Virus record (IMG/VR): IMGVR_UViG_3300021433_000003
Coordinates: 1 to 64,000 of that record
Strand: one strand, 5' to 3'
From: a virus
Length of the DNA stretch: 64,000 nt
The notes beneath the pieces were generated by a model. That model did not search any database and was not told where the DNA came from. It was given only the letters and a program-made list of their open reading frames with translations. Positions within the stretch are counted from its first letter, which is position 1. Each line of letters begins with the position of its first letter. This document shows, piece after piece, positions 4,895 through 57,337 of the stretch. The translations under genes were made by a program, and so were the position numbers.

Positions 4895-4895
4895 A

Positions 4896-7805: not shown

Positions 7806-7815
7806 GGGTAAGGTG

Positions 7816-8373: not shown

Positions 8374-8380
8374 TCCTCTG

Positions 8381-9349
8381 ATGGCTTTTCTTACCGGATA
8401 CGCGTCGATCTCTCGACGCGCGATGACGGGCACAATCCCGGTAGTTGCGCGTTCTCATCCATTAGCGAAAGGACTATTGGCTGCGTTTTATCCGGCCGCC
8501 TTCCCTGGCAGCACAATGACAAATTTAGCTGTTCCGGGGCTACTGGATCTAACGGTACGCCGCAACGCAAACTCATATAACGTGAACACTCCAGAGGGGC
8601 CAGGCCTTAATGGCATCTTGGGCCAGGCAAACACATCTGGGCTTCCAGCGAATTTTGTAGCTAACCCGCCAACAGGCGCGGTGTCGCTGTTCATCCGAGG
8701 AAAGTGGGGGCCTATAAATACTGGCACTGCGCCCGCCCAGATGTTTGGTTTCTATATAAATACGACGAACTTTCTTCAGCTTGCTCTACTGGCTGCTCCC
8801 GATCAACCAGCTCCGTCCGACAGTGTTATTGGTGTTGCATACCCAACTAACACCACAACCACAGCGTTGCCTGCGGGGACAACGGTGCCGGTTGTGGGAT
8901 CTATGGTTTCGGCCGGAGCGTCGTTCGTTTCAGGCGCGCTTCCTTCGCTTTATGTGAATGGTATCCAGCAGGTGCTCCAAGGGAGCCCGTCGGTAATGGT
9001 GTCTCCACTCGCGAACTGGAATGCCAATGGGCAGTTTACTCTTCAAGAGTTTCAGAGCAGTACTCGAACAGGCAGCATGGTGGCGACCGTTGCTTATGCA
9101 TGGGGCAACAGATTTTTAACGGCTGGGGAACATGCTTATCTGAATGCAAATCCTTATTCACTGCTGCGATGGCCTATTGATGTCGTTTATGACGTGCTTG
9201 AACAACCAGCCAGCACACCGCCCACTGGTACGGCGACAAGCAAGGCGATGATCCTCGCGCCGCTGACTGTCGGGCTTGGCGGCGTGGCTACGGCCGAACG
9301 CTGGCTGCGTCAGCGCAAGGACGCGATCCGACGACTTCGCGGTGAATGA
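8381..9349 (+). CDS. LamG/concanavalin-like tail protein, 322 aa
   Basis: The start ATG at 8381 follows the previous stop by 7 bases. Residues 25-60 read HPLAKGLLAAFYP, and the C-terminal part has VAYAWGNRFLTAGEHAYLNA followed by NPYSLLRWP. Together these match the beginning and end of the LamG-like (concanavalin-type) domains common in proteobacterial phage proteins, where the last strand is followed by the L-A-NPY-LF-P tail. It has no signal peptide, unlike all its neighbours, and ends in a basic helix (RWLRQRKDAIRRLRGE). Likely a carbohydrate-binding tail component. Confidence 0.7.
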   Translation: MAFLTGYASISRRAMTGTIPVVARSHPLAKGLLAAFYPAAFPGSTMTNLAVPGLLDLTVRRNANSYNVNTPEGPGLNGILGQANTSGLPANFVANPPTGAVSLFIRGKWGPINTGTAPAQMFGFYINTTNFLQLALLAAPDQPAPSDSVIGVAYPTNTTTTALPAGTTVPVVGSMVSAGASFVSGALPSLYVNGIQQVLQGSPSVMVSPLANWNANGQFTLQEFQSSTRTGSMVATVAYAWGNRFLTAGEHAYLNANPYSLLRWPIDVVYDVLEQPASTPPTGTATSKAMILAPLTVGLGGVATAERWLRQRKDAIRRLRGE

Positions 9350-11028
9350 TGCTGTGCCGATGGCTCCTAGCTGCGCTGCTGTGCCTCGCCGTCGCTCCGG
9401 CGTCGGCGTTGTTGCTGACGCGCGCGTCTGGAGGTGGATCTACATATCACGCCGCCACGATACACAATTACGTGTCATCTCTCACCAGTACCCAGATCCA
9501 CCAATTCGACATAAATGGGAACTCTATCGATGTAAGCGACGCCCGCATCTTGCAAGTCGGCACTACTGCTTATCTGTATGGCGACGCCAACGGATGCGGC
9601 CAGAGCATACAGAATAACGGGGTGTATTGCGGCGTTAACATCTACCAAGTGTGGGCAGACGCTAACGGCAATCCACAATTCCAGTTCCTCGGCCAGCCCT
9701 TCGACCCGACCGGGTCTCCGGTGGCTGCTAATTGCAGTCCGACAGCTACCTCGCCGATTGTGTTTCCGGGATGCTACAACACCGTCATATTATTCAACGC
9801 CGCGAATAATAACTATGTCATCTGGATTAATGGCGCTCAGGGCACGAACCAAAGCTATATGGTATGGACCTGTGCTAGCGTAGCCCAGATGACCAGCAAT
9901 GGCTGCGCGGCCGCAACTGCGCCAGCGCATCTCGGTCACGGCGGATCGGCGAACGCGAACGGGGATTATTCTCTGGCGATAGATGGATCAGGGAATGCGT
10001 GGATTGCCTACTCAAACAACAATAGCGGCCGGCATATCTTTGCGCAGGAGCTGAACTCGTCATTCACCGACGCGACGGGGAGCGACTTTGATACTGGTGT
10101 GACCGGCGAAGGTGTCGGGTTGTTCGTGGTTGGCAGCACATACTACATCACATACGGACCTCTTGCGGAATACTTCATCGCGGCGACCGACTACATCAGC
10201 TCGACCTCTCCGCTGTCTGCATGGTCCGGGATCACTGCACTAAACTCAAATTCTTGCTCCGGCCAAAACGGCGGGGGGACACCCACTGCCATCCCAGGAA
10301 CCCAGGTGCTATACCTGCCGGATAGATGGGCGCAAGCTCTCAGTGGCACCACACCGGGCCTCGGGAATCAGGCACTTAACAATATCTATTGGGCCGTCTT
10401 CGCATTCACCGGCAGCGCTCTCAACGCGATCACATGCGCCCCATCGAATAGCATCACGCTGCCCGCCGGCCCCGTGCCGACCCCATATTGGGCGGGGGCG
10501 CAGACAGGCTCGGAGGGTCTGTCTGGAGTAGCATATTGGGAACAAGGCTCGACCCAAAGCGCGGACCTTGGGGAAGGAGATTTGTCGCCGCCTTATCAAA
10601 GGGCTCAGAGTTTTACTGCCCCTACGAACCTATCATCAATCAATTTCGTGTTGACGACGGGCCAAGCCAACCGGCTATGCAAAGTCAACACCGGCTGCAC
10701 GGGGCCGACGGCGGGGCTCACTGCCACACTATTCGCAGTTGACGGGTCGCACCATCCCACTGGAAGCGCTCTCGCCACGCAAACGCTTGCGTCGGCCGCA
10801 TTCTCGTGGGCACCACAGCGTGTCACCTTCACGTTCAGTTCTCTGTCGCTAATAGCGGGGACTGAGTATGCGGTGGCGTTCAGCAGCCCCACAAATACGG
10901 CAGGAGGATACACATTCGCCTATAACGACACCGGCGCTTATTCGGGTGGCGTCGAAAGCTTTAGCTCGAATGGAGGCTCTACCTGGACGACCGAGGCGGG
11001 TCGGGTCATGAAGTTTTCGGTACAGTGA
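9346..11028 (+). CDS. Secreted GH43_24-like beta-propeller protein, 560 aa
   Basis: Signal peptide MMLCRWLLAALLCLAVAPASA is followed by LLLTRASGGG. Residues ~45-390 follow the blade pattern of GH43 subfamily 24 (exo-beta-1,3-galactanases). First blade: IDVSDARILQVGTTAYLYGD. Second: YNTVILFNAANNNYVIWING. Third: GDYSLAIDGSGNAWIAYSNN. Fourth: EGVGLFVVGSTYYITYG. A later PGTQVLYLPDRWA matches the family's FM-DRW strand. The Asp/Glu in these strands could be catalytic but I cannot confirm all of them. Residues 410-560 form a beta-sandwich (a FTAPTNLSSINFVL-type domain). A glycan-cleaving tail or secreted enzyme is likely; family assignment is by eye. Confidence 0.65.
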   Translation: MMLCRWLLAALLCLAVAPASALLLTRASGGGSTYHAATIHNYVSSLTSTQIHQFDINGNSIDVSDARILQVGTTAYLYGDANGCGQSIQNNGVYCGVNIYQVWADANGNPQFQFLGQPFDPTGSPVAANCSPTATSPIVFPGCYNTVILFNAANNNYVIWINGAQGTNQSYMVWTCASVAQMTSNGCAAATAPAHLGHGGSANANGDYSLAIDGSGNAWIAYSNNNSGRHIFAQELNSSFTDATGSDFDTGVTGEGVGLFVVGSTYYITYGPLAEYFIAATDYISSTSPLSAWSGITALNSNSCSGQNGGGTPTAIPGTQVLYLPDRWAQALSGTTPGLGNQALNNIYWAVFAFTGSALNAITCAPSNSITLPAGPVPTPYWAGAQTGSEGLSGVAYWEQGSTQSADLGEGDLSPPYQRAQSFTAPTNLSSINFVLTTGQANRLCKVNTGCTGPTAGLTATLFAVDGSHHPTGSALATQTLASAAFSWAPQRVTFTFSSLSLIAGTEYAVAFSSPTNTAGGYTFAYNDTGAYSGGVESFSSNGGSTWTTEAGRVMKFSVQ

Positions 11029-11032
11029 AGTG

Positions 11033-12094
11033 ATGCGTTCCATTCTTGGGATAGGATCACTCCTTGTCGCTGTGGCGCTGTCTTTCTCTGTCGCTCCGGC
11101 GTTAGGGCTGTTACTGAAGGGCGGGGCGGCTGGATACACTGATTTTTGCTCACAGTCCTTTATCGCCGGATCATGTATCTACGCCTATGACCTGAACCAG
11201 CGTCGAGTAAGCTCGAATGCCGTGCCATTCAAACTTACTCGCATTAGTGACAGCGCGACGCTTAACGGCAGCTATATTGGAGGCACTTTCTCGGTTAATG
11301 TTAGCGCGGTAACAGCATTTTGCGTTGGGAACGGGGGCACTACGACAGCCCAAACCTATAGTACTCAGTATAATGATTGCACTTACACAACCATTTATAA
11401 TCAAACAGGAATGGGCTGCGATCTGATAGCTGGCGCGCCTTATAATCTGACCAGCGCGACGGCTCACGCGCCGCTCGTTCAGGTTCGCACGAGTGATGGA
11501 ACGCTGGCTATTATCACACCGGGGACTGGCATAGCTGGATCGCCTGCGGTCCCATATACCAGTCCGGCGGCTAAATACCTCTTCAGCAACGGCTGTACGT
11601 TGGCCGATGGTGGCGCCGCCAGAACCTTAATAGGTAGAGGAAGCAACGCCTTCTATGGAGATGTCACTCATGCCAGCGGTGAATATGGGAGAATTGAGAC
11701 CAACCCAGCGCCCGGCAACGTTCCTTCTGGCTCGGCGATGAATACCGAGTTCTTTGTAAGTGGAGGCTTTTCTGATTATGATACGGATATTGAGGGCGGC
11801 GCGTTGTGTGTTGCCGGCTCTCCATTTTCTACATCTCCGACAATAGACGTTACTGGAGTTATCACCTATAGCTCTACTGCTGGCGGCTCAAACATTTGGT
11901 ACAATAATTCACAGACGGGGCCAGCTAACTGTGCCCCATTTACTACGGTCAACACTCAGGACGGGATAGTTATTGGCTGCTCTGGTGATTATACGCTGTG
12001 TAACAACAACTATTTTAGGGGGATGGCAATACTTAACATCGATGCGTCGTTGACCGCTGGTTTGCCGTCACAAATTTACAACGCATTGCGATGA
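11033..12094 (+). CDS. Secreted GH54-like (arabinofuranosidase B fold) protein, paralogue 1
   Basis: The ATG at 11033 is preceded in frame by a GTG at 11030. Signal peptide up to about residue 25 (SFSVAPALG), then LLLKGG. The body follows the GH54 catalytic domain: CIYAYDLNQRRVSSNAVPFK, TRISDSATL, AFCVGNGG and TTIYNQTG correspond to the family's C-AAHSTTRAL, L-R-SD-TT and IIYDQSGNG stretches. By alignment with GH54, the nucleophile Glu falls at E254 (DTDIEGG) and the acid/base Asp at D319 (GCSGDYT). The Cys-Cys pair of the substrate pocket is missing. Clear tandem paralogue of the next gene. Confidence 0.65.
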   Translation: MRSILGIGSLLVAVALSFSVAPALGLLLKGGAAGYTDFCSQSFIAGSCIYAYDLNQRRVSSNAVPFKLTRISDSATLNGSYIGGTFSVNVSAVTAFCVGNGGTTTAQTYSTQYNDCTYTTIYNQTGMGCDLIAGAPYNLTSATAHAPLVQVRTSDGTLAIITPGTGIAGSPAVPYTSPAAKYLFSNGCTLADGGAARTLIGRGSNAFYGDVTHASGEYGRIETNPAPGNVPSGSAMNTEFFVSGGFSDYDTDIEGGALCVAGSPFSTSPTIDVTGVITYSSTAGGSNIWYNNSQTGPANCAPFTTVNTQDGIVIGCSGDYTLCNNNYFRGMAILNIDASLTAGLPSQIYNALR

Positions 12095-13143
12095 CCCGTA
12101 CTGTCTCTGCTCTCTTTATCGCGCTGGTTGCAGCGATTATATGTTCCGCCGTTGACCCGGCGGAGGCGTTGCTGCTGCGAGGCGGTGGTAACGGCGCGGT
12201 TGCTTATAGCGACCTCTGTTCGCAGACGAATGTACCCTGCGTTTACGCGTGGTCCGTCACGCATCGTCTTAACTCGACGAACACCGATCCGTTTCAACTT
12301 ACTCGGACGAGTGATAGCGCGGTCTTCGAGGCCAGCTATACCGGGAGTAATTTCGTCGTCAACGTGTCCGCTGCGACGACTTTCTGTCTCGCCAATGGTG
12401 GCACGACCACAACGACGGCGACTTACACTCAGTACAACGATTGTACGTTCACCGATCTCTACGATCAGAAGGGGACGTGTAATCTGCTAGCGCTTGAGAC
12501 GAACAAGCGCCCCCCTTTCAAAACATGGCTCGCTGACGGGTTCCCGGTCATCATCCAAACCACGGTCAGCAACGGTACAGTCGGCGCTACAACGGGATGG
12601 TTGACCGGGTTTGGATGCTCGGCCGTCGCAGGCGCTGCCGCGAAGAGCCTGATATTTTACACGAACAGCACTTATGGATCGCTGTGCTGTGGCCAGTTTG
12701 GTTTCGGTGAAAATGGAAGCGGTTCCAATCCGACGCGGCCGATCCCCATTGTCAGCGGATCGATGTTAGCGCAGTTCTGGTTCACTGGCAGTCCAGTCCC
12801 TGCGGGATCAACAAACTACAACTATGACGACGAGGGTGGCGGAGGAGGAGGACGAACCTTTGTGAACAGCACTCCTGTCTCGGGCGTTGGGGTCATCACC
12901 TACAGCGGCGGCACCAATCTAATAAACGATTGGTTCAACAACATCCAGGGCGACACTAATTTTACTCCTCTTCAAACGATCAACACCCAAAGCCGAGTGA
13001 ATCTTGGATGCTCCGGTGATTTGACCTCGTGCGGACCGTACTGGTTCCGCGATATGGCGGTTACTTCCAATGACGTGTCGGCTGTTGGTGGATTGCCTAC
13101 AGCGATCTACACTTACCTGACGAACTTTTATGCCAGCATTTAA
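12091..13143 (+). CDS. Secreted GH54-like (arabinofuranosidase B fold) protein, paralogue 2
   Basis: Signal peptide ends at about residue 26 (DPAEA), followed by LLLRGGGNG. The pattern is the same as in the preceding gene: CVYAWSVTHRLNSTNTDPFQ, LTRTSDSAV, TFCLANGG, TDLYDQKGTC. Here the hallmark GH54 residues all have counterparts: adjacent cysteines C199-C200 (YGSLCCGQFG), E248 (YNYDDEGG) for the nucleophile and D310 (LGCSGDLTSCG) for the acid/base. In characterised GH54 enzymes these release alpha-L-arabinofuranosyl groups. Activity is predicted, not shown. The gene overlaps its paralogue by ATGA and the next gene by 14 bases. Confidence 0.7.
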   Translation: MTRTVSALFIALVAAIICSAVDPAEALLLRGGGNGAVAYSDLCSQTNVPCVYAWSVTHRLNSTNTDPFQLTRTSDSAVFEASYTGSNFVVNVSAATTFCLANGGTTTTTATYTQYNDCTFTDLYDQKGTCNLLALETNKRPPFKTWLADGFPVIIQTTVSNGTVGATTGWLTGFGCSAVAGAAAKSLIFYTNSTYGSLCCGQFGFGENGSGSNPTRPIPIVSGSMLAQFWFTGSPVPAGSTNYNYDDEGGGGGGRTFVNSTPVSGVGVITYSGGTNLINDWFNNIQGDTNFTPLQTINTQSRVNLGCSGDLTSCGPYWFRDMAVTSNDVSAVGGLPTAIYTYLTNFYASI

Positions 13144-14866
13144 GTTCATAGCCACTATTATCTTGGCCGCTGCGCTCGCGCTGAATGCTCTGCCAGTCGC
13201 GGCGCATTTCAGACTGGCATCGCATGGCGGTCAGGGCTCTGGAGGCGGCGCAACCAACGTTATCTCGGTTCAGCTCGGGAACGAAAACCTGCCAGTGAGC
13301 GCAGCGAGCGGCCATGTCATCGGCCCGTTGACCGCCAAGGTGACGGGCGGCGGGGCTTGCGTCGGCTGCACGTTTTCTATGGTCAATTCAGGCGCGTCCT
13401 CGGATGGCAGCGTTCCTATTTCATGCAGTGCATCAAGCAACGACTTTCAGGTTATCACTTCCGGTCCAGACCCGGTTGATCTCGCGAACTTAAACGTCAT
13501 CAGTACCGCTCAAATTTATGGACAGGCTGATCCTGCCTCGCCGACTCATAGTTATATCTGTGTAAAGGCTACTCCGCCGGTCGGCGCGTCGTTTACGCAG
13601 CCGTTCTCGATCATGGTGCGGAACCCGACCTTTACCGCTTTTGGGCCGCTTTTCGTTCAGTACACGACTGGTGTCGGCGAGACGGTGCCGCTTTCGACCA
13701 CAATATGCTGGACGCATTGCGGCGGTGCTGGATCTCCACCGGCCGTGACCTACACGCTCGGGGCCGATGCGGCTTGTACTGCTTCCGGCATCTCGATCTC
13801 GGGCAGCAACCTGATTTTCAGCTCGTCGTACACCGTGCCGAACGCTGGTGCAGGCGGAGCGAATTGCCATATCACCGCGACTGCGGCTGGTGTCGGTACG
13901 GGAATGATCGGAACGTCTGGATCGTCTTTCGTCGCTGATGTCCATATCTCTCAGGGAGCTTATGTTGGGCCAGGAGATGCGACCTACCCGAACGGTGCGA
14001 CGGGCATGACTTGGCCTGTCTGGACTGGCCCCTATGCTATCAGCGCAGCTTATGCGACGGCTGGAAATCCGATTTGGCTCGTGCAGCGCGAGGGCGATGG
14101 CCAGTTCTTCACAATCAATGCGCTCACTAACGGCGACATGGATTACAATACGCTGGCGAGCGACTGTGACACGTCAATCTGTTACCTCAACCTTGCCTAC
14201 GATCAGAGCGGCAACAGTCCAGGCTGCATTGTTACCGCTCCGACAAATTGCATGCCGACCTGGGGTCAGGCAACCGGAGCGGGCATAACTACTCGGAAGC
14301 CAGTTATCTTTTTCGACGCATTTGACGGCACCCGGGTCTCGCCGACGAACAGCAACAGCACTGATCGGGGCATGTGGAACCCCACCGCGTACAATGGCAG
14401 CGGCACGACCGGGACGCTATGGATAGATGCGGAGGAAAATACTGGTGTGTTCGGCGGCCCGGTGGTTGCCCTCAATTCCTCGAATGGCGTATCCAATCCA
14501 ATCGCTCAGCTCTCGTTCACGAACGGGGGCGGCTCTAGCTGCTACGTCGGACCAGGTGCGGGCGGCGGCGGAACGATCAGCGAATCGACAGCAGCCGGCG
14601 GTGTCCTGCATAGCATGATCTGCACACTGAACGGCTCAACAACGAATGGTTCGACACTAAAGATTGACGGAACCGAGACGACAGGAACGCTTCTGAACGC
14701 AAGCCTGAAAATACCTCTCGGGTTTGGGATGACGTATGGTGGCGGGTCTGATCAGGGCTTCATCCCTGGCCCATCAGCAGTCTCATCGACAGTAGCAAGC
14801 TCGTCACAGCGGCAGGCACTGTGCCTGTTCGATCAATGGACCTATGGGATCAGCGGAACATGCTGA
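13130..14866 (+). CDS. Secreted multidomain protein with arabinofuranosidase-like segment, 578 aa
   Basis: Signal peptide MPAFKFIATIILAAALALNALPVAA, then HFRLASHGG, a tag shared with the next gene. Residues 40-290 are Thr/Ser/Gly-rich, probably two or three Ig-like beta domains with scattered cysteines. Residues 295-360 contain AISAAYATAGNPIWLVQRE and CYLNLAYDQSGN, resembling the N-terminal half of GH54/arabinofuranosidase-type domains common in phage tail proteins. The C-terminal 200 residues are a beta-sandwich (LamG-like). Catalytic residues are not identifiable, so it may be a binding protein. Likely an adhesin or glycan-binding tail-type component. Confidence 0.55.
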   Translation: MPAFKFIATIILAAALALNALPVAAHFRLASHGGQGSGGGATNVISVQLGNENLPVSAASGHVIGPLTAKVTGGGACVGCTFSMVNSGASSDGSVPISCSASSNDFQVITSGPDPVDLANLNVISTAQIYGQADPASPTHSYICVKATPPVGASFTQPFSIMVRNPTFTAFGPLFVQYTTGVGETVPLSTTICWTHCGGAGSPPAVTYTLGADAACTASGISISGSNLIFSSSYTVPNAGAGGANCHITATAAGVGTGMIGTSGSSFVADVHISQGAYVGPGDATYPNGATGMTWPVWTGPYAISAAYATAGNPIWLVQREGDGQFFTINALTNGDMDYNTLASDCDTSICYLNLAYDQSGNSPGCIVTAPTNCMPTWGQATGAGITTRKPVIFFDAFDGTRVSPTNSNSTDRGMWNPTAYNGSGTTGTLWIDAEENTGVFGGPVVALNSSNGVSNPIAQLSFTNGGGSSCYVGPGAGGGGTISESTAAGGVLHSMICTLNGSTTNGSTLKIDGTETTGTLLNASLKIPLGFGMTYGGGSDQGFIPGPSAVSSTVASSSQRQALCLFDQWTYGISGTC

Positions 14867-17800
14867 TACTGCGTCTTCTCGTCGTCATGCTGACGCTGTG
14901 CCTTCCGGCGTCGGCGCACTTCCGGCTGGGGAGCCACGGCGCGGCGTCTTCTGTGTCGTCTGGCGTGGTTTTCTCTCAGACGGTCAAGAACATCGCCAGC
15001 GCGACGACGCCGACGATCGCTGGCACGACGATGGTCGCGACGCATATCGGCACGATGTATCCGCCCGGCGCGGTCCCATCCGGTGATATCGTGGTTGCCA
15101 AGGTCGGCGGCGTTACTCTCGCGAGCGCCCAGATCGACAGCCAGCAGTGCTCGTTCTGGCCAGACGGATCGTTGAGGTTCTGCCCGTTCTCGGGCTTTGT
15201 GCCACAGATGGCGTCGGGAGCCAGTCAGCAAGTTACTTTTTCAGTTCAGGCCGGCAGCTTCCCTACATCATCCTCAGTGACTCCAGCCACGATCGCTGCT
15301 GCGAGCGACTTCAAGGTCGTGCTGAGCAACATGAACGGTTCCTATACGAAGCAGGGTCCGCAGGGACCATCAGTCTGGTACGGGGCCTATCCCGGTTTCT
15401 ATGTGTCAGGTGGCGCGATCTCTGGCGGGTATGTCAGGAACCAGCCTACGACCGCGGCGGCTCCACAAGGCTTGCTCGGCTTCAACTGCACGTCGGGTAG
15501 CGCGAATTGCATCACACCATCGAATTACCAAGCGTCTGTCAGTACGACTACATCGTCAGGTAGCGCGGTCCTGACTTTCTCCAGCCTCCCTGTCCCGCCA
15601 CAGTACATTTTCAACAACCCCCAGCAAATCACTATCATCGACGTAACGAATCCGAGCTCGATCCCGGACAACACGACGGTTTTGTCGTTTAATAGCAGCG
15701 CAAAGACGGTAACGATGTCCGCCAACGCCGCCGCGAATATTACCTCCGGCGATACTCTCGCATTTGGCTACACGATCCACGGGGGAACCAGCAACGGGGC
15801 CTTCACGGTCACCGTGAATGGCTCCAATGTCATAACCGGCGTCAATATCATCAAGGCTGGCGGTGGCTTTTCGGCGGTCGGCTCCGGGGCGATGACCGCC
15901 GACATTGATACGATCCTCAACGCCTATGGCTCGACCGATCCATCGAGTTGTGCGTCGATGCCAGGGGCAGCCGCCTTCACGGAGTCGTTTTCCGGCTCGA
16001 CGATGACGGTTTCGAGCGTGACGGGCGTGGTCTCGATCGGACAGATGGTCGATGACGGAACCAACCTTGCGATAATCACGGCTGGCAGCGGCACGACATG
16101 GACGATCCAGGGTACGTTAGCAGCGGGTCCGATATCGGCCACGTCCACCCCGGCCCTGTGCGTCTACACCTCCGGCCCGACTGTGAAGGCGTATCGAGGC
16201 ATCGGCGCATACCGCGACAACGTAAGCGGCACCAAAGATGCCTGGGAGCGGTTCCGCTTCACCATCGAGGCGTGGACCGGACCTACCGGTCTATATGCGA
16301 TCAAGCCGGTAATTACTACCGATAATTCAGTCTATAAAAACCACAATGGCTGGCCGAACGTCGTCTACGACGCCGACTTCAAGAACGGCTCGACCGAGAT
16401 CATCGGCTGTGCGCAGGGCGGCTCAAATAACAAATGGTGTGCGATCCAGCAGCAGGTCAACGGCTCGTGGGCGGCGCTCGATCCATGCGAGGCCTGCGCG
16501 ATCGGAGCAACCGGCCGGCCAGTGTGGTTGCCGACGACGACAGGAACTTACAGCACACCGAACAGCCAAGCTCTCGCGCAGGTAGTCGTCTCCCCAGCCT
16601 CAGCCGACCTCGCCTTCATCCACGCCGCGCGGGCGGCTCTGCCGCTGAATAACACAATCACGGTCAGTCCGGCCGTGCTTACGACGACGACGGGGACATT
16701 CGGCTCGCCTTATTACACGAACCTCTATGCGCCCTATGAGCATGGCGGGACCGACGCAACGACAGGATTTGGGTCGGGTGGTTCTGGGCATATTGGCCTT
16801 GGGCCAATGGGATCGCCTTGGGCATACTGGTATCAGGCAGCCGAAGGCGGTGCGAGCGACGGCGGCGTTAGCTATCTAGCAAACATGAGAGTTGCCGCCG
16901 AATCAACGGCAGGCATGATGGATGGACCGCGGTACGATGACACGGGACTGCCGTTAAATTACTTCAACTCAGGCAGCGGATATACCCCGCCAGCGGCGTT
17001 CACGGACTCCAATACCTGGGATTTCGTGATGGATCAGTACAACAAGGCAGCTAGCTATCCCAATGATTTTATGTGGCAGGGCGATGTCCCGTCTCCGACT
17101 ACCGCCCAGCCGGCCCTGGCCAATACACAGATCGAGAATAACGACGGATACGGCGACACATCGCACTGGCCTGAGTTCCAGCACGGCATTTATTTGGTCG
17201 AGGCTGAGCGGTACATCTTGGAGAATTGGATCGACGAAGCGAATGGGGTGGCGTTAGGGCCATCCAATACCGATGGAAACACGCGATCTCTGTCATTCGG
17301 CGGAACGAGATATGATGCGCAAGGGATGAGCAGCAGCATTCCGCGGCAAAACTCGTGGTGGGCAAATGTGACTGTGCCGGTGGCATATCTCGGGCCGCCG
17401 AACGAGCCCTCTATCCAATACTACAAGCACGTCGTTGCCACCAACTACGCGATGAATTACGCTTTCTACAGTTTCATAGGCACCGGCAATTTCTGGGATG
17501 CGGCGGCGGGGGCTTCGGTGTGGCCGTTCCCCAAGTATTATGACAATACCGCCAACGGCGATCAGGCGACGCCGGAGGATTACAGGACTACGGTTCCGAA
17601 CAATTCGTCAATAATTGATACATTATTCATGCAACTGTATTGGGGCATGAACACCGACGAGGCGGTGATGTTCGATAACGGCAACGACGCCAACCTCACT
17701 GGTTTTGCGCGCAATTTCCTGGACAACTACTTGGTCAAGAACCCGGCTATCAATACCTGCGCCTACAACAATGTTGCCTATGTAATCAAATGGGCAAATG

Positions 17801-41208: not shown

Positions 41209-41579
41209 CCGATCGAGACCGCGAGATGGCCGTAGCTTGGCTTAAAGCATCTTGCACGGTGGCGTCGGCGTTGGTGATCATGGACTTGGCTAATCAATTC
41301 GCCGACGCGCGCGAGGAAGGCCGGCTCGCGGAGCGCGAGAAATGGATCGCGCTTGCGGGGCCATATTGGCGAACTGGTCGCGAAATCAGCCCCCTCGCAT
41401 TACTGGCCGCGGCTCGGCGCGAGGCGATCGAGGAATGCGCTAAGATCGCCGACGGGGGCGCGGCTCTGTTAGATGGCATTGAGATTGAGATAAAATTCGT
41501 CACACCCGAAAAGCTGGCCACCGATTTGGCCAAAGACATTGCTGACGGTATTCGGTCCCTCGGAAAGGAACCAACATGA
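41190..41579 (+). CDS. Hypothetical protein, 129 aa
   Basis: Overlaps the end of the HNH gene by 19 bases. Helical with hydrophobic start (ASALVIMDLANQFADAREEG), then RLAEREKWIALAGPYWRTGR and IEECAKIADGG. The pattern around RREAIEECAKIAD is common in small phage proteins of unknown role. Overlaps the next gene by ATGA. Confidence 0.55.
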   Translation: MGTLVVTDRDREMAVAWLKASCTVASALVIMDLANQFADAREEGRLAEREKWIALAGPYWRTGREISPLALLAAARREAIEECAKIADGGAALLDGIEIEIKFVTPEKLATDLAKDIADGIRSLGKEPT

Positions 41580-42022
41580 AGCACGCGCTCACCTCTACCG
41601 CGCTCGCCTTGGTGCTCGCGGCTTCTGGCGCGGCCCACGCCGGATGTCCCGGCAATGCCCCTCCCGGCGGGTCCGGTGTCGGCGATTGTCCTGGCTGGCG
41701 GCAGGTCGATATGTCGCCCGCTCCGTCAACGGGAGCCGGGGTCTACACGCTACGGCTCTGGGGCGATGGCAAGACTCTTCGCCCCTCGGTGGCGTTCTTC
41801 CTACCGGGGTTCGGCCCAGCTTTCTCGGAGCACTGTGATTTCGCGCCGCAGGTGGGTAGCGTCGGCTGGCCAGGCGCCGGGTCTCCTGCGATCGGCCCCG
41901 AGTTTCAGGGCGGCGGCTCGGCAGTGGTCAACGGGCAGCGTCTGGTCTATATCGACTTCAATCTTGCAGACGTAATTCCCGCTGGGACCGCTGTGTTCCT
42001 GAGCGGCCACTGCAACTTCTAG
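41576..42022 (+). CDS. Secreted small protein, 148 aa
   Basis: Signal peptide KHALTSTALALVLAASGAAHA, then cysteine-containing GCPGNAPPGGSGVGDCPGWR. Mature part is beta-rich (AGVYTLRLWGDGKTLRPSVA, VYIDFNLADVIPAGTAVFLS) and ends GHCNF. No family recognised. It precedes the PEP-CTERM gene and may share its location outside the cell. Confidence 0.6.
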   Translation: MKHALTSTALALVLAASGAAHAGCPGNAPPGGSGVGDCPGWRQVDMSPAPSTGAGVYTLRLWGDGKTLRPSVAFFLPGFGPAFSEHCDFAPQVGSVGWPGAGSPAIGPEFQGGGSAVVNGQRLVYIDFNLADVIPAGTAVFLSGHCNF

Positions 42023-42032
42023 GGGAACCGAC

Positions 42033-42680
42033 ATGCGCGAAATGATCCTGGCCGCAGGCTTTGCGGCGCTGACCATCACCTCGGCCCATGCCGACCAGAT
42101 TACTTTGGGCAACAGCCCGGTCGCCGCCTGCGACCTCGCCGGGACGGGGAGCAGTCATCCCTTGGCGATGTCGTGCGCGCCATATCACGAGTCGGCGCTG
42201 TTCCAAAGCGATGTCGGGGTCGCCTCGTTCGGCCCCGAGGCGCTGGCGACCGGGCCGGGGGCGGGCGGGGTCTTCCCGGTAATTTCTCAGACCATGCCGG
42301 GCGAGACGCTGAGCATCCTATTTGGCGATGGCGATCACATCAGCGGTACGGTCGACTGGACCAATCTCAACAACGGCTCTACCAACCCGCACATCGTCGG
42401 CGAATTCAAGTACGTCGCGACCGGCGACGCAGACTTTCTCGGGTCGTACAACACCTCGGGCCTCGCCGAACTCGACATGATTGCCGAGACGACGGCGCTG
42501 ACCCTGGAAAATTGGGACACCGATGCTGGTCTGACGTGGTCCTCGGGCGAGATCGTGGATCTGGGCGCGCCGCTGCCCGAGCCGCAAACTCTCGGCTTGC
42601 TCGCCTTCGGCTTGCTGGCGCTGTGGGGCTGGCTGAATCGCAACCGGCGCGGCAGCTCCGTCGGCCTCGGTGGCCCATGA
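42033..42680 (+). CDS. PEP-CTERM-sorted exported protein, 215 aa
   Basis: Has an N-terminal signal peptide (MREMILAAGFAALTITSAHA) and a C-terminal PEP-CTERM signal: LPEPQTLGLLAFGLLAL, a short membrane stretch, then the basic RNRR. Such signals direct processing by exosortase (EpsH-type) in extracellular-polysaccharide-producing Gram-negatives. The middle is a beta-rich extracellular domain (ISQTMPGETLSILFGDGDHI, LGSYNTSGLAELDMIAETTA), a pattern common in PEP-CTERM proteins. No exosortase is seen here, so the host would have to supply it. Rare in phages. Confidence 0.75.
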   Translation: MREMILAAGFAALTITSAHADQITLGNSPVAACDLAGTGSSHPLAMSCAPYHESALFQSDVGVASFGPEALATGPGAGGVFPVISQTMPGETLSILFGDGDHISGTVDWTNLNNGSTNPHIVGEFKYVATGDADFLGSYNTSGLAELDMIAETTALTLENWDTDAGLTWSSGEIVDLGAPLPEPQTLGLLAFGLLALWGWLNRNRRGSSVGLGGP

Positions 42681-42940
42681 CCAAGGGGGTCGACCGGGCT
42701 GAGCCGAACACCCCCCTTCTTGCTCGCCCCGTTCAGGGCATAATTGATCATGAGGCGCTTAGCCGGGAGTTCATGTGCCGCTTCCCGGTTATCCGATATA
42801 AGCTGGCTGGCCTGGATCGCTGGACGGTGGTACGGCGGGTTGATCGGGCTCTGAGTCTATTGATCATTGTGGCCTCGGCACTGCTCGGCGCGGAGGCGCT
42901 GTGCTGGCTTGGGAACGCGCTGCATCTCCCGCTGGGATGA
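42677..42940 (+). CDS. Single-pass membrane protein, 87 aa
   Basis: ATG overlaps the PEP-CTERM stop (ATGA). Residues 55-75 (ALSLLIIVASALLGAEALCW) are a membrane helix with positive charge before it (RRVDRA). The N-terminal half is polar. No family; lies between the PEP-CTERM gene and the O-antigen ligase-like gene. Confidence 0.5.
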   Translation: MTKGVDRAEPNTPLLARPVQGIIDHEALSREFMCRFPVIRYKLAGLDRWTVVRRVDRALSLLIIVASALLGAEALCWLGNALHLPLG

Positions 42941-43052
42941 TCTGGCATTCGTAGCCAAGGCGCTGGCGTTTGCTGGGGCCTCGCGACTGGCTGGGCCGTC
43001 GGCCCCCGATCATGGCGTGGATGATCGTCGATGCGACGATCACGGTTTAGGT

Positions 43053-43907
43053 TTGGGCGCGGTAGCATTCTTGGTCACGGTGGCGTGGTTCCCGGCGGGT
43101 GGTATGATAATGCCGCGTTGGTTGGTTCTGGCGGTTGGATTGCCGCTGACGGTGGTGTCTTCTTGGGCCGCCTGGCGCTGCGGTCGAGCCTGGGTATATC
43201 TGGTGGCTGGGCTGATCTACGCGGCGATGTCGATCGCATGGGCTCCCGACCGGCTTGGTGCGTTGCAGCAACTCTCTCAGATGGGGATTTTGGCGGTGGC
43301 GTTCGTGGCCGGGGCCGGCATCGTAGGGGCACGGTCGTTCGACCTCGTCATGGCCTTCTTCGCGGTTGGTTTGATGGTTTCGGCGCTGCTGTGCGTTCCG
43401 CAAGCTTTGGGCTGGTCCGGCATCCCGCAGAGTGCCCCGCCGGCAGGGCTATTCTATAACCGAGACGTGCTGGCGGAAACCGTGGCCCCCGTGCTGGTGT
43501 GGGCGATCCTTCAGCATCGGTATACGATGACGGCGGTATTGTTGATTCCGCTCCTGCTGTGCGGTTCGCGGGTCGCGTTGTTCGCCGCTGCTGTCGGGCT
43601 CCTTTACGGCTTGCCTATGCGGTGGCGCTGGCGGCTAATGGGGATGGCTGCTACCCTTGTGGCCGGCCTCGGGCTCTTGCTGTTGATGGGCCGGGAGAAA
43701 GCGGCCGATGCGCTGTTCCGCATCGTGCTGTGGGCCGATACCCTTACCGCCATCACTCCGTTTGGCCATGGCATCGGCTCGTTCGCGGCGCGCAACCCGG
43801 TGCTGGTGTATGCCCATAGCGACTCCTTGCAGGCAGCTTACGAGTTGGGCATCGGCGCGCTGCCGTTGCTGGCAATCCCGGTGCTGATCTGGCGGAGGAA
43901 GCAATGA
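43053..43907 (+). CDS. O-antigen ligase/polymerase-like (Wzy family) membrane protein, 284 aa
   Basis: Multi-pass membrane protein. Features of the Wzy_C/O-antigen ligase group: a GSRVALFAAAVGLLYGLPMR helix with the conserved GSR, the IVLWADTLTAITPFGHGIGS with FGHGIGSF, and VYAHSDSLQAAYELGIGALP where the H-N/S-D motif sits. About eight membrane segments are visible. Start uncertain: TTG 43053 gives a first helix, ATG 43104 a shorter protein, and the frame is open further upstream. It stops after VLIWRRKQ, before the usual last helix, which appears in the next gene. It would act in the inner membrane on lipid-linked glycans. Confidence 0.65.
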   Translation: MGAVAFLVTVAWFPAGGMIMPRWLVLAVGLPLTVVSSWAAWRCGRAWVYLVAGLIYAAMSIAWAPDRLGALQQLSQMGILAVAFVAGAGIVGARSFDLVMAFFAVGLMVSALLCVPQALGWSGIPQSAPPAGLFYNRDVLAETVAPVLVWAILQHRYTMTAVLLIPLLLCGSRVALFAAAVGLLYGLPMRWRWRLMGMAATLVAGLGLLLLMGREKAADALFRIVLWADTLTAITPFGHGIGSFAARNPVLVYAHSDSLQAAYELGIGALPLLAIPVLIWRRKQ

Positions 43908-44038
43908 ATGACCGGGCGGCCCGCGCCGTCTTCCTCGTGATCTGCATCGAGGCTGTGCTGTCGTTCCCGCTGCACCTGCCGGTTACGGGCATGCTGGCGG
44001 CGGTGACCGCGGGATATCTCTGTAGTAGGGTTTTATGA
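43904..44038 (+). CDS. C-terminal helix of the O-antigen ligase-like protein, separate 44-aa ORF
   Basis: ATG overlaps the preceding stop (ATGA). VFLVICIEAVLSFPLHLPVT, GMLAAVTAGYLCS resembles the final membrane segment of O-antigen ligases, where a FPLH-PVT-turn precedes the last helix. Together with the previous gene it would complete the protein. Either a natural split into two subunits, or a recent disruption. Confidence 0.55.
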   Translation: MNDRAARAVFLVICIEAVLSFPLHLPVTGMLAAVTAGYLCSRVL

Positions 44039-44289
44039 TGGATACCGAGAAGGAGAGGCCAATGAAAGTGGTGGTCCCAATCTCCCATGGGGAGATCAGT
44101 TGGGCTCCTTCGGTGGGTGATCATCCGCCATATAATTTGCTAATATCCTATCGGATAGAGTTCGAGCCAGACGGAAGCGGCTTCATCGAGATATTGGCTG
44201 AGCCGGGGGCAATCAGGACCAACAGTGACGGCTGGATGTGTCTTCGCCTTCCCGCCGAATTGTTTTCGGAAAAGATCACAGGTTCATGA
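44035..44289 (+). CDS. Small hypothetical protein, 84 aa
   Basis: ATGATGG start overlaps the previous stop. Beta-rich: MKVVVPISHGEISWAPSVGD, LLISYRIEFEPDGSGFIEIL, WMCLRLPAELFSEK. No family recognised. Lies between the Wzy-like and J-domain genes. Confidence 0.5.
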   Translation: MMDTEKERPMKVVVPISHGEISWAPSVGDHPPYNLLISYRIEFEPDGSGFIEILAEPGAIRTNSDGWMCLRLPAELFSEKITGS

Positions 44290-44912
44290 CCTTGTATGAC
44301 GAACTTGGTGTTGCGCCGTCCGCCACCGCCGCAGAGATCGGCCGAGCCTATCGCCGGCGGGCGAAGAAGGCGCATCCCGATCATGGTGGTGACCGCGCCG
44401 AGTTCGAGCGGCTGGCGCACGCCAAAGCGGTGCTGGCCGACCCCGACCGCCGCCGCCGCTACGACGAAACCGGAGATGAGGGCGCGGCGAACGCCGACAG
44501 GGAATTGGCGGCAGTGCTCGACATACTGGCTCGAGCGCTCGATGCCGCGATCCAGGCGGCGATGCAAGACCTGTCGCGGGTGAATGTACTGGCCCTGGCA
44601 CGACTGGACATCGCCAAACAGCGTGGCGCACTTGATGCCAAGTGCGGGCAGATCCGGGTAATCGTCGAGAAATACGAAGCCGTGGCCGCGCGTTTCAGGG
44701 CACCGAAGGGCAAGCCCGACCGCGTCGGCGCCATCATGCGCGCCCGGCTATCTGACGCCCGCCGGCAACTGGCGGCGATCGAAGGCCAGGCGGCGACGCT
44801 GGACAAGGCTGCCGCGATGTTGGAGGGGTATGAGTACCGTACCGACGCCCCTTTGGGGCCGCAGGGGTTTGCGCCGCTCGGATTGCAGACCTGGAATTTG
44901 GGCTTGCGCTGA
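44286..44912 (+). CDS. J-domain protein with C-terminal coiled coil, 208 aa
   Basis: ATG overlaps the previous stop. Residues 1-60 form a J domain: LYDELGVAPSATAAEIGRAY, the HPD motif at 30-32 (KKAHPDHGGDRAEF) and AVLADPDRRRRYDETGD. The HPD stimulates Hsp70 ATPase, so it would recruit the host DnaK. The remainder is a helical coil (IAKQRGALDAKCGQIRVIVE) and a short C-terminal tail (LGPQGFAPLGLQTWNLGLR); the DnaJ Gly/Phe and zinc domains are absent. Placed just before the terminase, suggesting a role in assembly or lysis timing by inference. Confidence 0.8.
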   Translation: MTLYDELGVAPSATAAEIGRAYRRRAKKAHPDHGGDRAEFERLAHAKAVLADPDRRRRYDETGDEGAANADRELAAVLDILARALDAAIQAAMQDLSRVNVLALARLDIAKQRGALDAKCGQIRVIVEKYEAVAARFRAPKGKPDRVGAIMRARLSDARRQLAAIEGQAATLDKAAAMLEGYEYRTDAPLGPQGFAPLGLQTWNLGLR

Positions 44913-45202
44913 TGGGCGAGATGTCCGGTCTGCTGCGGTCGATAACGGAACATGCGGGCGGTGAGGCCCCGGAATTCATGGTGGTGGGGGTGGATGATTA
45001 TTGCTCGCTGATCGAGAGCGCCGCGAGCAATCCGTGGGAATTGCGTAGGATGCTTAGGACGGCTGTGCCTGGCTGGTCGGCAAGCCGCAGAACGGCGTCC
45101 TGGAGGCATTTGAACGTGCCTCGTCGCCGCATTATCCGGCGCTTCCGCCCTAATTCGGGACCGCCGGGGTCACGAAACCGTTTCTGGACCTTTCTCCGCT
45201 AA
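44912..45202 (+). CDS. Small hypothetical protein, 96 aa
   Basis: ATG shares bases with the J-domain stop. The first half is folded-looking (APEFMVVGVDDYCSLIESAA), the second very basic (SWRHLNVPRRRIIRRFRPNS). Position directly before the large terminase suggests a small terminase subunit or DNA-binding accessory, but there is no HTH I can identify. Confidence 0.45.
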   Translation: MGEMSGLLRSITEHAGGEAPEFMVVGVDDYCSLIESAASNPWELRRMLRTAVPGWSASRRTASWRHLNVPRRRIIRRFRPNSGPPGSRNRFWTFLR

Positions 45203-47115
45203 TGTCCGCAGTAGTCCCGTCGACGACCCGGTTCCACCGCGACGCCTTCGAGGAAGCCTTCTACGACTTCCTAAAACACGTCACCATCGTCTCTAAGAAC
45301 TCGGGTCCGACTATCATCGACCCCTATCGAGCGCAGCGTTACGCGCTCGACCAGATTTTCGATGGGCTTGCCAACGGCATTCACTGGTTTGTGATCCTAA
45401 AGGCCCGGCAGCTCGGGATCACCACTCTAACCCTGTTGCTCGACCTGTTCTGGTGCGCCCTCTATCCGGGGCTGCAAGGCGCCTTAGTCACCGACAACGA
45501 CCCCAACAAGGAGAAGCTGCGGCTGTTGGTCACCGAGATCCTCGATTATCTGCCGAAATCGCATCCGCTGCCGATCCGCAAGCACAACCGCAACGGTCTG
45601 GTGTTCGAGAATGGTTCGATGATCGACTACCTTGTGGCCGGCACCCAGAAGCGCAAGGGCGCGCTGGGCCGGTCGCGAGCGCTGAACTTCATGCACTCGA
45701 CCGAGACCGCGCAATATGGCGATGTCGAGGGCTGGGAATCGCTGATGTCCTCGCTGTCGGACACCTATCCGTGGCGGCTCTACGTCGTCGAGTCTACGGC
45801 GCATGGCTATAACCTTTTTGAGAATGCGTGGCAGGATTCCATCTCCGACGACCTGACCAAGCGGGCGGTGTTTATCGGCTGGTGGCAGCATGACGAGTAC
45901 CTGATCCCAAAGGGCACGCCGCTGTTCCAGCGTTACGGCTACGACCGCCTGTCTGATGATGAGGTCGAGACCGCGAAGATCGTCAAGGAAACCTATGACT
46001 GGACGATCACCTTGGAGCAGTGGGCATGGTATCGTCACCGCAAAGACCCGCAACGCCGCGCCGATAGCGGCGAGATCGACGAGGGTAAGGGCGAGATTAT
46101 CGAGGTCGAGTTTCCGTCTTATGCCGAAGAAGCCTTCCGCATGTCGGGCTCGCCTTTTCTGCCGGGACGGACCCTTGATCAGTCGATGAAGGTGGCGCAG
46201 GAGCAACTGTTCAAGGCGTACACTTACTATTTCGGGGACAATTTCCTGGCGTTGCGGCGGCATCAGGTCGATGTGGCCAGGCTCGCCCAACTGAAGGTGT
46301 GGCAGCCGCCCCACCCCAACGGGCGCTACGTCGTCGCCGCCGATCCTGCCTATGCGTCGAGCGACACCGCCGACCGTTTCTGCCTGCAAGTCGTCCGCCT
46401 CTACGCCGACCGGCTAGTCCAAGTCGCCGAGTTCGCGGTGCGCAACATGCAGCCGTTCCAGTTTACCTGGGTTCTCGCCGACCTCTGCGGCTGGTATGGC
46501 AATTGCCGCTATATCCTGGAGATCAACGGTCCCGGCGAAGCGGTGATGACCGAGTTCCGCCACCTCAAGACCTTACTGGACACCGGCAAGCTTGTCGCGC
46601 CTCGCCAAGACGATGAGGCGGACGACCCTCAGGACGGTCGCCGCCCTCCCTCGCCGCTCGCCAATGTCAGCCAGTATCTGTTTCACAGGCCGGACGCTAT
46701 ATCAGGCTCGTGGAGCATACAATGGAAAACTACAGCGTTCAATAAGCCGGTACTTATGAACTCTATGGGCGATCACTACATGATGGGCAACCTCGTGGTG
46801 AACTCGGTTCCGGCGCTGGCCGAGATGAAAAAGCTGGTGCGCAAGGGGATGCAGATCGAGGCCGACGGCAACGCCAAGGACGATCGCGCGGTGGCGTTGG
46901 CGCTTGGGACTCGGGTGTGGATCGATTTCGAGCGGGCCGAGTTGGAGGCTTCGGGCCGGACTTTTGCCATCGAGACCGCCCGCGATGCCGAGGACGAGCA
47001 TGGCGCCGGGCCGGATTATATGACATATGTGATGCAGAACCATTTCCGCATGGCGGAGCGCCAGCGCAGGGACGATGCGCGCCGCGCTCGCCGGCAAGGA
47101 CGGTGGGCGTGGTGA
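45202..47115 (+). CDS. terL: Terminase large subunit, 637 aa
   Basis: ATPase part: Walker A-type KARQLGITT at 67-75, a Walker B-like LNFMHSTE at 161-168 and the coupling motif YVVESTAHG near 195-202. Nuclease part: VVAADPAYASSDTADRF near 375, YILEINGPGEAV near 435 and KDDRAVALALG near 565, supplying the acidic residues of an RNase-H fold. It drives DNA translocation into the prohead and cuts the concatemer. Nuclease and ATPase in one protein as usual. Length is slightly above average. It starts the late + strand block. Confidence 0.9.
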   Translation: MSAVVPSTTRFHRDAFEEAFYDFLKHVTIVSKNSGPTIIDPYRAQRYALDQIFDGLANGIHWFVILKARQLGITTLTLLLDLFWCALYPGLQGALVTDNDPNKEKLRLLVTEILDYLPKSHPLPIRKHNRNGLVFENGSMIDYLVAGTQKRKGALGRSRALNFMHSTETAQYGDVEGWESLMSSLSDTYPWRLYVVESTAHGYNLFENAWQDSISDDLTKRAVFIGWWQHDEYLIPKGTPLFQRYGYDRLSDDEVETAKIVKETYDWTITLEQWAWYRHRKDPQRRADSGEIDEGKGEIIEVEFPSYAEEAFRMSGSPFLPGRTLDQSMKVAQEQLFKAYTYYFGDNFLALRRHQVDVARLAQLKVWQPPHPNGRYVVAADPAYASSDTADRFCLQVVRLYADRLVQVAEFAVRNMQPFQFTWVLADLCGWYGNCRYILEINGPGEAVMTEFRHLKTLLDTGKLVAPRQDDEADDPQDGRRPPSPLANVSQYLFHRPDAISGSWSIQWKTTAFNKPVLMNSMGDHYMMGNLVVNSVPALAEMKKLVRKGMQIEADGNAKDDRAVALALGTRVWIDFERAELEASGRTFAIETARDAEDEHGAGPDYMTYVMQNHFRMAERQRRDDARRARRQGRWAW

Positions 47116-55175: not shown

Positions 55176-55868
55176 ATGGCGCTCACCGCGTATGAAATCG
55201 TCACGCTGAGGCTGCTGGACGATCCTACCAACGCCGTCTATTCGACGCAGGAGGTCGACACCGCGATCAACGCTGGCCGCGGTCAGATCGCCGCCGCCAC
55301 GCATTGCGTTCGATACACTGGAGCCGTCTCGACGACGGTCGGGGGCGCGGTTTATCCACTTGCCGGCCTTTCGGTCGAGACCGGGGTTCAAGGCGCCCTC
55401 ACCGCTCAGATAGGTTTTATCTCAGGCGCGCAGTTTGCGTATCGGCCTTGGGAGTGGTTCGTTGCCTATCGAACCTTGGCACACGGCGCCCCGAATATGT
55501 GGTCGATCCAAGAGCCGGGGCCGCTCGGCTCCATCTCCGTCGATCCCGTCCCGGATAACATCTATCCGCTGAGTTTCGACCTGATCGGCCGTCCGGTCAT
55601 TTTGGTCGATGACACGACGCCCGAGGCCATCCCGTATCCTTGGACCGAAGCGGTGCCGTATTTTGCGGCGTACCTGCTCTATCAGGACAAGCAGCGCACC
55701 GCCGATGCGCTCGCCCTTTTGCAGCGCTGGGGCGAGTTTATGTCGTGGGGGACGCGAGCGGTCGTCTCGACCGTGCTGCCGCTCTACTCGCCCGGCGGCG
55801 GGGCTTCGCGCGAGGCCGCATCGAAGATCGTAAATACCGGGTTCGGCCCCTCAGCCGGAGGCCGCTGA
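55176..55868 (+). CDS. Tail adaptor / tubular A-like protein, 230 aa
   Basis: N-terminal LTAYEIVTLRLLDDPTNAVY, STQEVDTAINAGRGQIAAAT is the helical start of gp11-like adaptors (L---V-LLDD-----S-D-AINAARQ-IA). The C-terminal part contains TEAVPYFAAYLLYQDKQRTA, DALALLQRWGEF, typical of the same group. It would connect portal and tail hub. A longer relative lies at 57565-58593. Confidence 0.65.
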   Translation: MALTAYEIVTLRLLDDPTNAVYSTQEVDTAINAGRGQIAAATHCVRYTGAVSTTVGGAVYPLAGLSVETGVQGALTAQIGFISGAQFAYRPWEWFVAYRTLAHGAPNMWSIQEPGPLGSISVDPVPDNIYPLSFDLIGRPVILVDDTTPEAIPYPWTEAVPYFAAYLLYQDKQRTADALALLQRWGEFMSWGTRAVVSTVLPLYSPGGGASREAASKIVNTGFGPSAGGR

Positions 55869-57337
55869 TGCGCAAATTCCTGCTGGCCTTGGTCGCCATG
55901 ATGGCGGTGGGCTTCGGCGGTGTGGCGCTGTCCCAATCCGGCATCTGCATCCAATGCTTGGCGCCGGCACTGCTGCCTCTCCTCGGCACGGAATATGTCC
56001 CGTGCTCGCAAGGCGGCGCCACGGTCAGGTGCCCGTACTTCTCCAGCGTCCTCGATATCCGAGCCTTTGGCCTGACCAGCAATCCGATCAATCTTTACAT
56101 CTCGCAGCTCGGAAATGATGGTGGGTCGCCGGGCTCCGGCACGAATTTATGCATCTACATCGCTCAGCCATGCTTGACCAAGGCGCAAGCGGTCAATTCC
56201 GCCTTTCTGTTCAACGCCGCGGGCGGGAATATCATAATTCACGCGCTGGCTGGCGGGACGAATACGTGGAATGAGAGCGTCTTTGTAAACAGCCCGTTGC
56301 TCGGAAGCGCCAACTCCTTTCCCAACCCGACCATTGCCCCGCCTGCCGTCCAAGATAGCGGGCAGTTGATCTTCGACGGCGGCGGCACCGAGAATTGGAA
56401 CGGCGGTAGCGCTGACTGCGCCACCATCGGCGTCGGCGATCACGCCACGGTGGCGATCATGAACATGGCGCTGATCAGCGGCACGGGATCGGGATGTAGC
56501 TCAACCGGCTTCGTCCAGATCGGCGGCACCCTCAACCTCTTGGCCGGCAACACCTGGGGACCGGCTACCGTTGCTATCTGGCACAACGAAAATTCCGGCT
56601 CCAATCTTGGGATTTGGGCCGATCAGAACGTCTCGGGCAACGCGACATTCCTCTCCGTCTCCGGCTCGGGGGCGTCCAGCCTGATATCCGCGGGCCATCT
56701 GAATTTTGTCGGCAACCCCACGCTCGGGACGCTGTTCTATGTCGAGGCGTCGATCACCCAGATCAATCCGGCCAACATTTTCCAGGGAACCGCCGTCGTA
56801 ACCGACGAGTATCAAGTAAAATACGGCGGCCAGCTTCTTTTCTACCTGACGCAATCACCGCAATGGCCAGGAGGGGGTGGGACTGGCTTTCTTTATAGCG
56901 GCGGGCGCATCAACAACGCCAGCGACGATAGCTATAACACGCCCTGCGTCGCCGGTAACGTGGGATGCCCCCTAACTTCTCCCTCGCCGACCGGCAACGT
57001 AACGGTTTCGGTTGTAGACGGCTCTGGTCCATATGCTGGGAAGGTTGACATTCTGGCTGGGGCAAGCGCTGCGGCGACTGGGTCATTCTATCTGAGCTTC
57101 CCGTCGATCTTGGTTAGCGACACTGGCCTGAACGGGCTCTGTAGTTTTACGCTAGCCATTGGCGGACCGTCGCCAGGGGTTTGGCCTAGCTTCAATGCCG
57201 GCTCGTTCACCGTCTATTCTTTCGTGCGTGGCGCGGACGATACAATCGGGCCGGCAAGCCACGTCGCATTTCTTTGGGCATCTCCGGTGGTCTTGCCGGC
57301 CGGAGACTACCTAGTTAAGTACAATTGTAACAATTAG
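55868..57337 (+). CDS. Secreted tail-type protein with CIQC/QGGATV module, 489 aa
   Basis: ATG at 55868 overlaps the preceding stop; it opens with a signal peptide (MRKFLLALVAMMAVGFGGVA) and GICIQCLAPALLPLLGTEYV, PCSQGGATVRCP. The same module follows the signal peptide at 4532. The remainder is a beta-rich, repeat-like sequence (HVTVSGNATFLSVSGSG-type strands), probably a right-handed beta helix (pectate-lyase-like) with a C-terminal beta-sandwich. Likely an adhesin or tailspike; no catalytic residues identified. Confidence 0.6.
   Translation: MRKFLLALVAMMAVGFGGVALSQSGICIQCLAPALLPLLGTEYVPCSQGGATVRCPYFSSVLDIRAFGLTSNPINLYISQLGNDGGSPGSGTNLCIYIAQPCLTKAQAVNSAFLFNAAGGNIIIHALAGGTNTWNESVFVNSPLLGSANSFPNPTIAPPAVQDSGQLIFDGGGTENWNGGSADCATIGVGDHATVAIMNMALISGTGSGCSSTGFVQIGGTLNLLAGNTWGPATVAIWHNENSGSNLGIWADQNVSGNATFLSVSGSGASSLISAGHLNFVGNPTLGTLFYVEASITQINPANIFQGTAVVTDEYQVKYGGQLLFYLTQSPQWPGGGGTGFLYSGGRINNASDDSYNTPCVAGNVGCPLTSPSPTGNVTVSVVDGSGPYAGKVDILAGASAAATGSFYLSFPSILVSDTGLNGLCSFTLAIGGPSPGVWPSFNAGSFTVYSFVRGADDTIGPASHVAFLWASPVVLPAGDYLVKYNCNN

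Follow-up and report, generated by a model that had tools for sequence, protein, structure and literature searches.

A PEP-CTERM sorting signal on a phage protein

Can a phage use the exosortase of its host to place one of its own proteins on the cell surface or in the EPS? The question is raised by a gene within a window of 64,000 bases, which covers positions 1-64000 of a virus record 65,422 bases long and for which an initial annotation had proposed such a route. The gene lies on the + strand at 42033..42680 and encodes P0001, a PEP-CTERM protein of 215 aa by ORF call and HMM matches. An AGGGGA stretch is found upstream of its ATG, and its ORF overlaps the next one by ATGA.

The N-terminus of P0001 resembles a Sec signal peptide (MREMILAAGFAALTITSAHA; 42033..42092, + strand), as judged by reading of the sequence and by a crude rule, and to this degree the signal peptide of the initial annotation is upheld. 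The rule is passed from Met42042; the start at Met42033 puts one acidic residue in the n-region. The cleavage site is inferred to lie after AHA, between MREMILAAGFAALTITSAHA and DQ. The same crude rule is passed by 17 of the 55 called window ORFs of at least 80 aa, and the signal peptide by itself is not distinctive for P0001 in the window.

At the other end, the tail reads LPEP-QTLGLLAFGLLALWGWLN-RNRR-GSSVGLGGP, the C-terminus in full being LPEPQTLGLLAFGLLALWGWLNRNRRGSSVGLGGP. The PEP motif occupies residues 182-184 (42576..42584, + strand; PF07589 match at 42576-42641) and is followed by the hydrophobic segment of the sorting signal (42585..42638, + strand), which is recognised in the sequence and in a modelled helix of residues 184-209, and then by the basic cluster RNRR at residues 203-206, read from the sequence (42639..42650, + strand). 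PEP, hydrophobic helix and basic cluster thus follow one another in residues 182-206 of 215. Atypical features are LPEP in place of VPEP and the nine residues past the basic cluster. The structure model of P0001 is poor overall (pLDDT 41), its best part being the helix 184-209 with a block pLDDT of up to 92.

A search with PEP-CTERM HMMs, which the initial annotation had named as a check, gave 16.3 bits with TIGR02595, just over the cut-off of 16, and 20.1 bits with PF07589 in a scan of the whole protein, 0.6 under the cut-off of 20.7. When the complete virus record was searched in six frames, PF07589 scored 24.1 bits (E 4.4e-6), over the same cut-off, and the P0001 locus was its sole match in the 65-kb record. 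An HMM trained on 50 distinct PEP-CTERM tails from other phage proteins gave P0001 20.0 bits; shuffling the last 45 residues 20,000 times never produced such a score (best 9.3), and the runner-up among the 905 window ORFs had 4.2 bits. With PF07589, no match was obtained at E <= 0.01 in 14 named control genomes, nor in any of 48 records with a relative of the window terminase that were put through the same six-frame search. Among nine PEP-CTERM proteins scanned with NCBIfam P0001 is the weakest, and the model of the THxN-family PEP-CTERM proteins (NF038125) gives it 16.4 bits over residues 123-198, far under the 85-bit cut-off. When P0001 is compared by hhalign with the profile of F1, a phage PEP-CTERM family described below, the tail alone aligns, at 41% identity (E 1.7e-6, calculated for this one comparison), with no homology to the F1 ectodomain beyond it. 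TIGR02595, PF07589 and the phage-tail HMM with its shuffles agree in confirming the C-terminal signal of LPEP, helix and RNRR that had been proposed, and on the strength of these profile scores the PEP-CTERM tag of P0001 is taken as real, though among the weaker bearers.

The ectodomain is an orphan among the sequence sets searched (viral_contigs, genome_contigs, INPHARED and plasmids). P0001 has no relatives in viral_contigs, genome_contigs or plasmids; against INPHARED phages it finds two matches only, both at E 6, and among solved structures it has no relative, the single match being at E 0.85. Tblastn against phages with the bare P0001 tail or a consensus tail gave no match, short queries of this kind being a weak test.

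Gene neighbourhood

The P0001 gene apparently belongs to a phage operon and precedes the terminase by 2.5 kb, and with portal and major capsid protein (MCP) genes following beyond TerL the initial view that the protein belongs to a phage is borne out. The gene run on the + strand consists of a 148-aa secreted protein, P0001, an 87-aa protein, a split Wzy_C-like gene, an 84-aa protein, a DnaJ-domain protein and TerL, and several of its genes overlap by ATGA. Upstream of P0001, the small 148-aa protein (41576..42022, + strand) has a signal peptide, no family was found for it and it has no relative in viral_contigs. The 87-aa protein (42677..42940, + strand) has one membrane segment and is ATGA-coupled to the P0001 gene, the 84-aa protein (44035..44289, + strand) is ATGA-coupled on both sides, and the DnaJ-domain protein of 208 aa (44286..44912, + strand; PF00226, 57 bits) comes from the gene immediately ahead of the terminase in this run. 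The terminase large subunit (45202..47115, + strand; phrog_2, E 1e-11) anchors the locus in a phage. It is about 40% identical to the annotated TerL of MW202753 and MW202825, and terminase and capsid of the window show 31-40% identity to those of annotated Manatee Spring phages. TerL has relatives in at least 555 viral stretches, and in those of their loci that were compared with the window, relatives exist only for the window genes from the terminase onwards, which are mostly structural. No match to a tyrosine integrase or resolvase and no tRNA gene were found in the window record.

The main part of the Wzy_C (O-antigen ligase-like) protein lies at 43104..43907 (+ strand) with an uncertain start, the frame being open from 42867, and matches PF04932 at E 7e-5 and 23.1 bits, below the cut-off of 31.7. 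A 44-aa ORF in another frame (43904..44038, + strand) corresponds to the C-terminal end of Wzy_C relatives and would reflect a split gene or a frameshift. The protein has 11 relatives in viral contigs (L084-L094), and by reading there are genes bearing signal peptides near these. A Wzy_C gene together with exported proteins looks like a recurrent phage glycan-ligase module (window 42867-44038; L084-L094). The pairing of Wzy_C with PEP-CTERM is seen only in the window record, since PF07589 has a match in 0 of 11 Wzy_C-carrying records and no F1 locus has a Wzy_C gene.

Elsewhere in the window, about ten putative virion or fibre-like proteins of up to 969 aa have Sec-type starts (3783-14866 and 55868-57337), among them large ORFs, fibre-like by reading, at 4896, 9346 and 13130; exported structural-type proteins are odd in a tailed phage. 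Where two large genes adjoin, a 27-base unit occurs in two imperfect copies (14859-14912), the sole tandem repeat found in the window.

PEP-CTERM proteins in other viral contigs

Other viral contigs encode proteins with the same kind of tag. A degenerate DNA pattern for [VL]PEP[STA]TLxL in GC-rich codons was run on viral_contigs and returned 11 stretches, 9 of which are C-terminal PEP-CTERM proteins by reading; PF07589 is over its cut-off in 9 of the 11. A second DNA-pattern scan gave 21 stretches, of which 12 are genuine by reading and 9 of these had already been found in the first scan. Not counted, with the motif internal or no helix after it, were L095 and L103 from the first scan and L117, L118, L119, L122-L125, L127 and L128 from the second. 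Eight of the PEP-CTERM phage proteins were compared with PHROGs, and none fell into a family there.

An alignment of three proteins from the second scan served as seed for F1 (L129-L207, L126), a previously unnamed phage PEP-CTERM family encoded in 84 viral contigs. Among the 80 loci kept (59 distinct sequences), 67 have PEP, 10 another xEP and 3, identical to each other, lack the tag, so that (x)EP, helix and basic tail are kept in 77 of 80. As one of the two F1 search patterns itself contains PEP, the fair figure is that of the 57 loci carrying the ectodomain pattern alone, 54 of which are tagged (44 PEP, 10 xEP, 3 none). The three untagged loci (L184, L185 and L199) share one sequence, which stops with VPGR at the very position where VPEP is expected; to judge from the sequence, the tag may have been lost naturally or a frameshift may be present. 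At E <= 0.01 PF07589 matches 46 of 50 distinct F1 members, these 50 having been selected by their xEP tail, and any other Pfam family matches at most 2 of them; the invariance of EP in the alignment of the 50 is by construction, as the sequences were filtered for that tail. F1 members keep the tag at 37-93% identity to the first member. Mean pairwise identity is 0.57 in the tail and 0.49 in the ectodomain and median dN/dS 0.40 and 0.59, respectively, values that are rough since saturated pairs were dropped. One F1 member had no relative among sequenced phages and plasmids. The F1 model (L129 8001-8648, mcc0497581902) has a confident all-beta fold (pLDDT 86.6) with no Foldseek match in PDB or BFVD at E <= 0.001; VIA-align gave Z scores of up to 9.2 to barrel cyclases, close to what models lacking a match commonly give, and these scores are not used to assign a function.

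Phage genes accompany the tagged proteins in many of the carrier records. PHROGs recognised a major head protein in the L099 record, terminase and portal in G068, tape measure and terminase in G067, a DNA polymerase in G064, a primase in G059 and, weakly, a terminase in G060 (E 0.0005), while G061 and G065, in which no phage gene was recognised, were left out as phage examples. BLAST with proteins of the carrier records found a match in the flank of 37 of the 80 F1 loci. For 32 of the other 43 (11 were left out as near duplicates by reading), terminase, portal, helicase and tail-fibre ranked among the families most often matched in a scan of 93 genes. Of 45 records searched, 4 have a tyrosine integrase match and none a resolvase. 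With many records being fragments, the gene presences reported for them are lower limits.

PF07589 matches at E <= 0.01 in 41 of the 45 records, the window's included, and is over cut-off in 39. Two matches occur in 8 of the 45, the second of them below cut-off in G089 and G093. A reading by script of the loci found PEP-CTERM genes in tandem, similar in signal peptide and tail and different in ectodomain (L126, L133, L153, L158, L163, L172, L183, L187, L190 and L196). Most of these loci have two such genes, L172 and L196 three; the second tandem hits of L137 and L138 are spurious. At least two further ectodomain families are present in the tandem loci, with 'TYTLEAQATADPLTEQF' and 'FCGPLAEGGCGDG'.

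Exosortase and host

No match to an exosortase was obtained with TIGR02602 or PF09721 in the window virus record, and none was found in 49 PEP-CTERM carrier records, an absence that is not absolute as the records may be fragments. With a real tag and no exosortase detected in the phage record, any use of the tag would require an enzyme supplied by the host or another source. The initial proposal that the phage uses the host exosortase gains from a tag taken as real, a gene beside the terminase, a record in which no exosortase was detected and an arrangement that recurs in viral contigs; the part that concerns actual use of the enzyme is retained as a prediction. Likewise, surface or EPS placement of P0001 is inferred by analogy from the PEP-CTERM literature. 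Searches of genome_contigs with P0001 and with the terminase gave no relatives.

Discussion

Bacterial PEP-CTERM proteins (TIGR02595 / PF07589; EpsH, TIGR02602 / PF09721) share with P0001 the signal peptide, PEP, helix and basic cluster, and have no common ectodomain. P0001 differs in being phage-encoded with no exosortase found there, in its LPEP and nine-residue extension, and in its position beside a terminase and a Wzy_C-like gene. F1 resembles P0001 in signal peptide, short ectodomain (beta-rich according to the F1 model), PEP-CTERM, phage context and the lack of a detected exosortase, whereas the two ectodomains are unrelated by profile comparison. That PEP-CTERM is rarely discussed in phages, as the initial annotation had remarked, agrees with a literature search that gave one relevant statement, on TIGR03118 proteins with a C-terminal exosortase interaction domain, of which 13 HGT-derived cases are reported in Yellowstone virus contigs (PMC11003980). 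These proteins and P0001 are both of PEP-CTERM type in viral sequence, and the passage on TIGR03118 draws no functional inference (PMC11003980); P0001 is of another family and has no TIGR03118 match. Passages in two further papers deal with cellular PEP-CTERM genes (PMC12642866; PMC4886054). The tag is thus of a known kind, and no description of what would be a recurrent, tandem phage cargo for a host exosortase was found in the open-access papers searched.

We consider it probable that P0001 is phage cargo for the PEP-CTERM/exosortase route, with the enzyme supplied by the host, and one case of a recurrent strategy that retains the tag with varying ectodomains. According to this model, the predicted signal peptide would lead to export of P0001 by Sec, and the LPEP-helix-RNRR tail, a signal read from the sequence, would retain it in the inner membrane. 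The host exosortase would then cut at PEP and free the ectodomain to the cell surface or EPS. The authors of the PEP-CTERM route from which the model is taken call C-terminal cleavage still to be investigated. In the last and weakest step, the ectodomain on display would alter the infected cell's surface or matrix, the likeliest purposes being to reduce adsorption by further phage or to modify aggregation. These two purposes are placed first on account of a likeness to phage surface lipoproteins with another anchor. Llp of T5 and Cor are phage surface lipoproteins for superinfection exclusion, and proteins of this type carry a lipobox anchor, not PEP-CTERM. The same role is described for the surface lipoprotein Ltp of TP-J34 (PMC3952083). 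P0001 would also be a phage-encoded surface protein, with exclusion reported for the lipoproteins and proposed here.

A broader version, in which phages of exosortase-bearing bacteria would carry exchangeable PEP-CTERM cassettes of one to three genes, similar in signal peptide and tag and varied in ectodomain, and would use the host exosortase during infection to coat the infected cell or its EPS, excluding rivals or altering release, and in which the window cassette would be joined to a Wzy_C-type ligase modifying the displayed protein or the EPS, is possible but distinctly tentative. We regard it as quite unlikely that P0001 belongs to an exported phage set as substrate or partner of a phage periplasmic glycan ligase (Wzy_C) that modifies surface proteins or EPS. 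The Wzy_C-like gene less than 0.5 kb downstream in the same run, the signal-peptide genes near its 11 viral relatives and the share of window ORFs that pass the crude signal-peptide rule would fit such a set, but PF04932 stays under its cut-off, the gene is split in the window, and the pairing with PEP-CTERM was seen once, being absent from the Wzy_C records and from the F1 loci alike.

PEP-CTERM proteins are mostly cellular. P0001 may be a passenger, a host gene acquired by chance pick-up or as a lysogeny moron, whose product is sorted normally and serves the host (in biofilm or floc) or nothing. Its orphan status among the phages searched and the four integrase-bearing records agree with such an origin; against it, 41 of the 45 records, the window's included, have no tyrosine integrase match and none has a resolvase, both counts being limited by fragments, and the spread of F1 across many viral contigs at 37-93% identity with the tag kept would speak for long residence in phages, so that we hold this origin to be unlikely. 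It is highly improbable that P0001 is an ordinary phage protein anchored in the membrane, with a C-terminal helix that came to lie between PEP and RNRR by accident. Its whole-protein scores at the cut-offs and the untypical LPEP and nine-residue extension leave some room for this, but signal peptide, motif, helix and basic cluster stand in the correct place and order, no shuffle attained the score of the real tail, the next best window ORF was far below it at 4.2 bits and no control genome matched at E <= 0.01.

If phages carry the tag without the enzyme, as our preferred reading of P0001 as cargo for a host exosortase would have it, they would rely on a host sorting system that, in the papers found, is otherwise discussed almost only for cells. 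A PEP-CTERM gene may also aid host prediction, since its phage should infect an exosortase-positive host, and the F1 phages offer many natural variants of tag and ectodomain as a handle on function. If true, this would be a new phage route to change the host surface, and exosortase might then count among the host factors for infection.
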